Part shown: piece after piece, positions 970-2,433 of the stretch
Position numbering within the stretch: the first letter of the stretch is position 1
How the letters are laid out: each line of letters begins with the position of its first letter
Virus record (IMG/VR): IMGVR_UViG_3300042549_000134
Coordinates: 1 to 21,467 of that record
Source of the DNA: a virus
DNA: 21,467 nt
Direction: 5' to 3' (one strand)
Notes under the pieces: generated by a model
Databases searched by the model: none
What the model saw: the letters and a program-made list of their open reading frames with translations, nothing else
What the model was told of the DNA's origin: nothing
Program-made: the position numbers and the translations under genes

Positions 970-1157
970 TGAAAACACTATTTGAGTTCTTTGTGGAAGA
1001 GTTCTCAGACATCCACTACTGCCCTTATTGCCTGGCAATCAAAGGGGATAAAATAGTTTGCTGCCAAGAAGCAGACTTTACTAAGTTCAAGGATTTATAT
1101 ATTGAACAACAAAAAGAAATAATCAATGCTGAATTAGATGAAAATCAAAGGAGTTAA
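969..1157 (+). CDS. Small Cys-rich protein, zinc-ribbon-like
   Basis: The protein has 62 residues from ATG 969, which overlaps the previous stop as TGATG; an upstream in-frame ATG at 939 would intrude 30 bases into the preceding gene and is less likely. Cysteines are arranged as HYCPYC followed about 11 residues later by IVCC, a possible metal-binding knuckle but with fewer spaced pairs than a classical zinc ribbon. The rest is acidic and helical (FKDLYIEQQKEIINAELDE). The 3' end contains AAAGGAG, the ribosome binding site of the next gene. The family is not recognised. Confidence 0.65.
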   Translation: MKTLFEFFVEEFSDIHYCPYCLAIKGDKIVCCQEADFTKFKDLYIEQQKEIINAELDENQRS

Positions 1158-1158
1158 T

Positions 1159-1776
1159 ATGTCAATAGAAATGCTACTTAAAAAGAACGTCAACGATCAC
1201 GTTGAGAAGAAGAATGGCCTATCCTACCTATCATGGGCATGGGCATGGGCAGAGGCTCTCAAAGCTGATGCAAAGGCTTCCTACAAGATAGAAATGTTTG
1301 GCGACAAGTGTTTCATGGATATCAATGGCACAGCAATGGTGTTCGTAACAGTTACCATGTTTGATAAGCCAATGACTTGCCAGCTTCCCGTGATGGACTA
1401 TCGAAACAAGGCCATCCTTAACCCTGATGCGTTTGCAGTAAACACGGCAATCATGCGCTGCATGACCAAAGCCCTGGCACTACATGGCCTCGGTCTATAT
1501 TTGTATAGCGGTGAAGACGTCCCCGAAGAGGGTGATAAGTTTGAGAAAATCATTATCAGCCCAACCCAAGGCGCACAAAATGACGTTCCAATTGAGGAAC
1601 TAAGGTATCTTGAAGAAGTGGCAATAGAATTGATTGCCATGTGTGAGCAAGGTGATCCAAGGGCAGCCTTGGTTAGGTTGGATGAAGAGAACCTAGATAA
1701 CGAGCAAAAGATCGCTCTATGGACTCTCATGCCTAGTAAAGTAAGAAATGCGTTAAAGAAAGCAAAGGAAATGTGA
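1159..1776 (+). CDS. DUF1071/Sak3-like single-strand annealing protein
   Basis: The protein has 205 residues; ATG 1159 is preceded by AAAGGAG at good spacing. The N-terminal region (about 18-125) shows the hallmarks I associate with DUF1071, a phage recombinase family often called Sak3-like and grouped with Rad52-type annealing proteins: [16 protein letters not shown] near the start, a beta-rich core ([29 protein letters not shown]), then [20 protein letters not shown] and a short acidic run (SGEDVPEE). The C-terminal 70 residues are helical and less conserved. Expected role: binding ssDNA and annealing strands during phage recombination and repair. The next gene encodes a small protein with an SSB-type tail, which fits a recombination pair. 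Family assignment is from memory of motifs. Confidence 0.75.
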
Positions 1777-2015
1777 TGGAAAAGAAAGATAACAGTGGTG
1801 TTTTGTTCCGCAACGACAAAAAAGAGTCAGAGAAACATCCCGATTACAAAGGGAATATTACTGTAAATGGTCAGGATTTCTGGCTCAGTGCTTGGATTAA
1901 AGAGGGCAAGTCAGGCAAATTCATGGGTTTAGCAGTATCACCCAAAGAAGACTATCAGCCCAAACAAGCCCCTAAGAAGTCCAACTTTGATGACTTGGAC
2001 TCACTTCCTTTTTGA
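1776..2015 (+). CDS. Small SSB-like protein with acidic C-terminal tip
   Basis: The protein has 79 residues; ATG 1776 overlaps the upstream stop as TGATG, and an in-frame GTG directly before it is an alternative. Residues about 22-55 ([15 protein letters not shown], then [12 protein letters not shown]) look like a short beta-barrel or beta-sheet core with aromatic residues. A flexible linker ([12 protein letters not shown]) and a terminus of [10 protein letters not shown] follow. Bacterial SSB proteins end in an acidic stretch finishing in PF that recruits partner enzymes, and this end matches that pattern. The core is shorter than a full SSB OB-fold domain, so this may be a minimal or divergent ssDNA-binding protein. 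Coupling to the annealing protein supports a recombination or replication role. Confidence 0.65.
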
Positions 2016-2029
2016 GTTAATATAAACCC

Positions 2030-2085
2030 GAGGGGAGAGCTGTGCAAAGGATTTTCCTAGCTTGCAGACGAGCAGTTTTCCCCTC
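2030..2085 (+). ncRNA. Long imperfect hairpin; candidate structured RNA or cis-regulatory leader
   Basis: The 88-base gap between the SSB-like gene and the next gene can fold almost completely. Bases 2030-2042 pair with 2073-2085 in 13 continuous pairs, including two G-U. Inside, TGCAA (2043-2047) pairs with TTGCA (2062-2066), and AGGA (2048-2051) with TCCT (2055-2058) around a TTT loop; AGC (2059-2061) and six bases (2067-2072) bulge out on the 3' side. The ribosome binding site AGGAG (2093-2097) follows 7 bases later. There is no poly-U tract, so it is not a standard terminator. It may be a small RNA, an RNase processing site or a translational control element. I cannot match it to a named RNA family. 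Confidence 0.5.
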
Positions 2086-2103
2086 ACCTAATAGGAGTTA
2101 ATG

Positions 2104-2433
2104 ATGACATTAGATAAAACATGGTTTGGTGGTGCAGTAGAGAGATTCTTTGGCTCACCAGCCTTTAAGTTGGTTAGAAAAGAAGACCCCACAACAAGCC
2201 ATCAGGCGGCTCAAGCAGTAGATAGCACCAAGCTAGAACAAATGGTCTACGAGGCCATTAAGAGCCATCCAGATGGGTGTATCTCAGACGAGATACTAGA
2301 GATGTATCCAAACTACCCATATTCCTCAATAACAGCAAGGTATCGTGCTTTGTTGGACAAGGATTTAATTGAAGTAACGGGTGTCAAACGTGGCAAATTT
2401 GGCAGAAATCAACGAGTGATGAAAGCGAAATAA
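2104..2433 (+). CDS. Winged-helix phage protein
   Basis: The protein has 109 residues. Two ATGs are adjacent (2101 and 2104); the second has the better 6-base spacing from AGGAG. After an N-terminal extension (WFGGAVERFFGSPAFKLV) comes a motif common in small phage wHTH proteins, KEDPTTSHQAAQAV. It is followed by a winged-helix: LEQMVYEAIKSHPDGCISDE, a second helix, SSITARYRALLDKDLIEVTG, and a basic tail with GKFGRNQRVMKAK. It probably binds DNA, as a regulator or a replication/recombination accessory. It is preceded by the structured RNA element and its stop overlaps the next start as TAATG. Confidence 0.65.
   Translation: MTLDKTWFGGAVERFFGSPAFKLVRKEDPTTSHQAAQAVDSTKLEQMVYEAIKSHPDGCISDEILEMYPNYPYSSITARYRALLDKDLIEVTGVKRGKFGRNQRVMKAK

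Follow-up and report, generated by a model that had tools for sequence, protein, structure and literature searches.

The window analysed here, 21,467 bases long, is a phage record. A rightward gene run extends over 730–2615 and is made up of two small genes, a Sak-type single-strand annealing protein gene, an SSB gene, a winged-helix-like gene and a 60-aa gene, after which the genes run leftward. A hairpin lies between the SSB and the winged-helix-like genes, and its parts are collected in Table 1. The family matches agree with the boundary between recombination genes and a winged-helix gene that had been proposed in a sequence-only reading of this DNA. A relative of the winged-helix-like gene also matches phrog_1687, of the MarR family, and the SSB and winged-helix genes show mosaic identities among relatives. 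The gap, mostly occupied by the hairpin, amounts to 85 bases when counted to the ATG at 2101; the 88 bases given by the sequence-only reading hold for the in-frame ATG at 2104. The ribosome binding site that it had placed after the hairpin is indeed present.

Table 1. Features of the window around the hairpin that follows the SSB gene.
Feature	Positions	Strand	Basis or remark
Sak-type single-strand annealing protein gene	1138–1776	+	PF06378, E 2.6e-40; phrog_659
SSB gene	1773–2015	+	phrog_18154, E 3.9e-15; stop codon 2013–2015
Leader GTTAATATAAACCC, SSB stop to hairpin	2016–2029	+	identical or almost so in type A relatives
P1 5' arm	2030–2035	+	fold, alignment
AGAG, paired with UUUU 2076–2079	2036–2039	+	replaces GAA/GUA internal loop of canonical element
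P2 5' arm (CUGU)	2040–2043	+	fold, alignment
P3 inner hairpin: GCAA/UUGC and AGGA/UCCU, UUU loop, 3' bulge AGC (2059–2061)	2044–2065	+	fold
Six-nt one-sided bulge AGACGA	2066–2071	+	3' bulge at same place in other elements, by eye
P2 3' arm	2072–2075	+	fold, alignment
UUUU, partner of AGAG 2036–2039	2076–2079	+	fold
P1 3' arm	2080–2085	+	fold, alignment
ACCU after P1	2086–2089	+	window sequence
Ribosome binding site AGGAG of downstream gene	2093–2097	+	sequence
Winged-helix-like downstream gene	2101–2433	+	phrog_1123, E 1.6e-8

The strong nested hairpin that had been reported at 2030–2085 is borne out by folding: its MFE is −27.7 kcal/mol, against a mean of −15.1 (sd 3.0) for shuffled sequences (z −4.24), and none of 200 shuffles equals it. 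Its stems had been given as 13, 5 and 4 pairs with two G-U; refolding yields 14 outer pairs, three of them G-U, then 4 and again 4, with the loop of three U and the one-sided bulges as originally described; both bulges are on the 3' side. The opposite strand folds less well (−19.6 kcal/mol, z −2.52), and the structure is thus assigned to the plus-strand transcript. The hairpin has no U-tract, as had been stated, and no terminator is predicted there. Promoter predictions around the gap are at chance level, 5 being found for 5.0 expected.

The Sak protein was used as an anchor for finding relatives, and 80 loci were kept from its scan, two of them without a full SSB match. In these relatives the slot after the SSB gene holds the window hairpin, an intermediate, or a diverged element with a highly conserved core, called canonical in what follows. 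The 60 distinct post-SSB sequences, window included, comprise 29 of the window type (type A), 14 of the short types B and E, 11 canonical elements and six cases in which a gene directly follows the SSB; in two loci of the latter arrangement (L033 and L047) the element is present further downstream. The intermediates L022 and L039 combine a type A inner part with an outer part in which GAAAGC stands against CGUA, and thus connect type A to the other types. Alignment of 16 distinct A, B and E forms, including the intermediates L022, L039 and L038, keeps P1 and P2 in register with 99.3% of cells paired, and double changes that preserve pairing are observed at columns 2–55 (G-C/A-U) and 5–52 (G-C/U-G/C-G). 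HNH-like genes, recognized by eye at L002 5637–6122 and L155 1729–2115, adjoin the SSB gene and the element in several loci.

Located just after a phage SSB gene, the window hairpin is a genuine and strongly conserved RNA element. Over its 56 nt, the 28 type A relatives are on average 98.5% identical to the window, 20 of the 28 being fully identical, and in the same 28-locus comparison the third positions of the codons in the neighbouring SSB gene have a mean identity of 57%. Selection or recent recombinational exchange could account for this near-frozen state, either one being sufficient. Like the canonical elements, whose spacing peaks at 5–9 nt, the window hairpin lies close to the stop of an SSB-type gene, beginning 14 nt after it. 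It is devoid of the GAA/GUA internal loop and of the GAAAGCGGAUGC/GACGCAGCGAGUA core of the canonical elements. The canonical model R1, run with filters off against the window, returned nothing at 2030–2085, the rows elsewhere being at chance level (E 0.17 and worse). The link between the window and canonical forms is thus drawn from place and intermediates, not from the model. Since R1 does not match and the AGAG/UUUU pairing replaces the core loop, the window hairpin is a derived sister type of the element class and not a canonical member, homologous to it by place and through the intermediates. That this hairpin represents a broader class of elements linked to SSB genes could not be seen in the sequence-only reading.

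The canonical core, GAAAGCGGAUGC...GACGCAGCGAGUA, is highly conserved and lies between two covarying helices. Its strands beside P1, GAA and AGUA, resemble a bulged-G (loop E) motif. Searching viral contigs with the pattern AAAGCNGATGC-N15-45-GACGCNGCGAGTA gave at least 120 stretches, with 111 distinct cores among the matches listed. With its two single N fixed, the pattern is present in four stretches of 84,980 prokaryote genomes, found in a Xylophilus MAG, a beta-proteobacterial MAG, a Burkholderiaceae genome and an Armatimonadetes MAG. RNAalifold analysis of 64 elements yielded P1, a two-pair step and P2, with double changes in 7 of the 10 consensus pairs; a structure written by hand, in which the inner helices were out of register, scored worse on these 64 elements and was dropped. 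In the 148 distinct cores from all loci, pairs 1–4 of P1 are Watson–Crick in 139, 145, 143 and 138, and pairs 1–3 of P2 in 138, 133 and 126 of 138. The 148-core table, summed over pairs 1–4 of both helices, gives 34 G-U against 13 A-C, which matches the expectation for a plus-strand RNA. The compensatory changes that the sequence-only reading had proposed to look for in homologous gaps are therefore present.

Twenty-four alignment columns are invariant in the 64 elements, a figure partly imposed by the search pattern, and cores that are shortened or altered occur among the loci found by gene and not by pattern (L304, L306, L343, L439). The commonest bases after the 148 canonical elements (A in 98, C in 120, C in 118 and T in 93) are those found after P1 in the window. 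A match to the element is present in 38 of the 43 virus records searched, in 33 of them exactly once (E up to 1), and the five records without a match include the window. Three consecutive element matches, the outermost weak, follow one gene in L087 (2759–2992, minus strand), and apparent tandem copies after one gene are also seen in L083, L100, L115 and L152. The L160 record has equal-scoring elements at both contig ends (10–84 and 33653–33727), probably a terminal repeat. The element is present in one of the nine named phage regions examined, MW202710.1, where a canonical form lies between the SSB gene and a gene annotated ntP-ppase, without any annotated feature on the element itself; blastn with three elements gave no further convincing named record.

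An ORF of 50 aa or longer has its stop codon within 15 nt upstream of 111 of the 147 canonical elements having enough upstream sequence (one of the 148 being dropped), compared with 5.3% of 2,940 random positions, and the spacing peaks at 5–9 nt (88 of 147); the other 36 elements have no such stop codon within 15 nt. On the downstream side, a likely start codon is found within 40 nt for only 82 of 148 elements, and the downstream genes vary, belonging to many families. Among the proteins encoded upstream are OB-type SSBs, an Enc34/gp2.5-like ssDNA-binding protein, a PF23977 protein, a family with a DWDDE tail, and a small Cys-rich protein. An SSB-family match was obtained within 1.3 kb upstream for 68 of 111 core-found elements and for none of 266 controls, a proportion that measures consistency and not discovery, since the SSB seeds were drawn from the same loci; the remaining 43 have no upstream SSB-family match, and some of these loci end early. 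Acidic tails occur in 58 of the 111 adjacent proteins, versus 12.5% of 877 control ORFs.

Proteins of two of these upstream families were modelled. The predicted model of a PF23977-type protein (pLDDT 64.5) has weak OB-fold neighbours, the best in Foldseek being an RPA chain (E 6.2e-3), and VIA-align gives Z scores of 8.7 for an integrase-RDF fusion chain, 6.3 for BRCA2-DSS1 and 5.7 for the gp32 core. The model of a DWDDE-tail protein (pLDDT 48.7) is too poor for use. An SSB-like nature of both types is thus weakly suggested by their C-terminal tails and their place and, for the PF23977 type only, by a weak likeness of fold. The small Cys-rich gene (~50 aa) lies between the SSB gene and the element in L142, L144, L151, L174, L180, L181 and L131, and an SSB-type gene is found just before it in most inspected loci. 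Its product begins like a signal peptide and has ...C.TNC(Y/F) at the C terminus; the one such protein tested had no match in PHROGs, Pfam or NCBIfam.

The same slot could be surveyed after 80 PF23977-type genes and 77 usable DWDDE-type genes (three of 80 being too short). The strict pattern finds the element in 29 of the 80 and 21 of the 77, respectively. The remaining slots hold variants, plain GC hairpins, either followed by U-rich runs (e.g., L320 and L333) or not (e.g., L405 and L420), and other structured-looking sequences; a few have no obvious hairpin or pass straight into the next gene (L396, L397, L412, L456). The other structured-looking sequences are seen in L327, L329, L391, L399, L411, L323, L337, L408, L409 and L415, and Rfam gave no match at the slots of L327, L391, L409, L323, L337 and L415. 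In Burkholderia phage Bm1, a tRNA-Met (L295 2876–2951) begins 6 nt after the SSB stop, in the usual place of the element. The L429 slot, right after a DWDDE-tail gene, resembles a tRNA in having an end stem like an acceptor stem and two stretches that look like T-loops; ARAGORN predicted no tRNA there. Folding of whole slots in three gene families gave median z values of −1.48, −0.57 and −1.22, compared with −0.12, 0.33 and −0.22 for controls, and z falls below −2 in 16% of the DWDDE-type slots versus 4% of controls, a weak excess. The excess of folding in the slot is modest, and covariation is the stronger evidence.

The comparison of the interval with Rfam that had been suggested was carried out: Rfam 15 at the gathering cut-off gave nothing on the window, nor at the elements that occupy the slot in 30 distinct related loci, and lowering the threshold to E 5 gave no match in the window gap (2000–2130) and, for one canonical element, only five sub-threshold, chance-like rows. 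No earlier description of the element was found in the open papers searched; a 2023 survey, which reportedly presents candidate structured RNAs in viruses, could list it. With covarying helices in homologous gaps and no Rfam match, the undescribed phage RNA anticipated by the sequence-only reading is supported. The int-alpA RNA (RF02996) is likewise ~70 nt long and is present in four of these phage contigs, but it differs in sequence, fold and place on the contig; matches above the gathering score lie at L002 1302–1367 (minus strand), L327 5167–5232, L337 4966–5031 and L376 4939–5004. A riboswitch would have genes of one pathway downstream, and the many families found there count against it. 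REP elements of E. coli occur in many copies per genome, whereas 33 of 43 phage records have exactly one match to the element.

Other known systems show partial resemblance. The protective structures of the malE-malF type in E. coli (PMC5927463) are also structured RNAs without a U-tract that follow an upstream operon gene; the phage element differs in being mostly present as one copy per record, in having its own core and in being tied to SSB genes, and its stabilizing effect is one that we infer. The L17 downstream element, as outlined in PMC2864571, is similarly a conserved structure in the potential 3' UTR of one kind of gene, with its strand deduced from G-U pairs, although it belongs to other hosts and another gene, and the phage element has no Rfam match. 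The T4 gene 32 message is a phage SSB message of unusual stability and processing; the elements described for it in PMC3014915 are different, namely a pseudoknot 5' of the gene and an RNase E site near the stop codon, with no hairpin class. The putRNA of HK022, like the element, is a phage RNA of ~70 nt in early transcripts, but consists, according to PMC9378689, of two stem-loops downstream of early promoters that act in long-range antitermination; the window has a single irregular nested hairpin, located towards the end of a short rightward run. A long-range antiterminator was rejected because the element is too near the end of that run. The window hairpin is not classed as a member of any Rfam family, as a terminator, as a put RNA or as a REP family member.

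The element class is well supported, and the mechanism that we infer for it is as follows. The hairpin would act within the 3' UTR of the phage SSB gene and protect the SSB mRNA against 3'–5' decay, a proposal to which we give about an even chance. An endonuclease would cut the polycistronic early mRNA downstream of the element, and 3'–5' exonucleases would halt at the folded RNA, so that the Sak-SSB part of the message would outlive the downstream part and SSB would be made in abundance although the transcript is shared. In the canonical form, the conserved core could act as a particularly rigid obstacle or be bound by a host factor, and the window form would do the same job by means of its continuous 14-pair helix. 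Protection of the upstream message is suggested by the link to the upstream stop codon, the replacement by other stable structures, the absence of a U-tract and the nature of the proteins, which are needed in quantity; different yet structured RNAs indeed occupy the same place in other phages, and only 19 of the 148 elements have a run of four T at most 8 nt away from P1. Among the functions offered by the sequence-only reading, a role in processing or stability fits best. A trans-acting small RNA or a switch of the downstream gene fits less well, because the spacing to the upstream stop is kept and the downstream gene is variable or distant. Structures without a U-tract at 3' ends inside E. 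coli operons, malE-malF included, are protective (Dar and Sorek, PMC5927463). Against protection, in six of the 60 distinct Sak-neighbour slots another gene directly follows the SSB, a few slots after the PF23977-type and DWDDE-type genes are without an obvious hairpin, the folding excess of the DWDDE-type slots is weak, and 43 of 111 elements lack an upstream SSB-family match and 36 of 147 a close upstream stop. The invariant internal loops also exceed what an exonuclease block needs, given that relatives have plain GC hairpins in that position. Protection alone does not account for the fixed core, and the element may be read by a protein or a ribosome.

This core brings in a protein-binding operator, recognized in the 3' UTR or between cistrons by a phage or host protein and controlling translation of the SSB or of the downstream gene. 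The 24 invariant columns (in part a product of the search pattern) and the fact that the window form is almost identical in diverged phages speak for it, and precedents are provided by T4 gp32, which regulates its own mRNA through the 5' pseudoknot (PMC3014915), and by the L17 downstream element (PMC2864571). However, the upstream genes come from several unrelated families, so that a single self-recognizing SSB cannot account for the common core, the downstream genes vary, and the window form has no core loop, which makes an operator rather unlikely. A processing site, at which RNase III or another host nuclease would cut the early transcript between the SSB and the next gene, is unlikely as well: the long irregular intergenic hairpin followed by a ribosome binding site would suit it, as would the tRNA, itself a processed RNA, that follows the SSB in one named phage, but the plain short GC hairpins in the slot of relatives appear too short for RNase III. 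RNase III sites are also not known to require some 24 fixed nucleotides.

An element acting at the DNA level, either as a recombination linker or as a single-strand replication signal beside SSB and Sak, would be consistent with 56 almost identical nucleotides next to a diverged SSB and with the mosaic SSB and winged-helix identities, as recombination through shared patches would give, and with the mostly single copy (33 of 43 records); the G-U pairs, the poorer fold of the opposite strand and the narrow spacing to the stop codon render it quite improbable. Partial intrinsic termination or attenuation after the SSB gene is very improbable, since the U-rich runs behind some slot hairpins of relatives (L320, L333) have no counterpart in the window, runs of four T are confined to 19 of 148 elements and several swapped-in hairpins are without U runs (L405, L420). 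A 5–9 nt spacer is typical of recoding stimulators, and 88 of 147 elements have this spacing, which would suit stimulation of readthrough or frameshifting at the SSB stop. Such recoding is nevertheless extremely improbable: none of the three frames is preferentially open across the element (0: 40, −1: 51, +1: 34 of 111), the median in-frame extension is only 51 nt, and in some Sak-neighbour slots, whose sequences start with TAAACT, a TAA immediately follows the stop.

Structured RNAs acting from 3' UTRs have rarely been described in bacteria, and phage expression is discussed mainly in terms of promoters and terminators. Related elements are found in the same place in many freshwater phages and in no RNA database searched. 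Many environmental phages have a conserved RNA core after their SSB gene, which is exchanged for other structures in relatives. It is possible, if somewhat doubtful, that this new class of phage RNA, with a core as invariant as those of many riboswitches or protein operators, is a dedicated 3'-UTR module of SSB genes read by a common host factor. Under that reading, the reader must be shared by the hosts, since the element is common to phages with unrelated SSB families; it could be a factor such as a nuclease, an RNA-binding protein or the terminating ribosome, in hosts that are mostly Burkholderiales, as judged from a few genome matches. The window type would then mean that the module can lose its core and yet keep its place. 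If mRNA protection sets SSB levels, the element would be a portable expression part; recognition of the core by a host factor would point to a host–phage contact not yet described. Either reading yields a covariance model and clear mutants.
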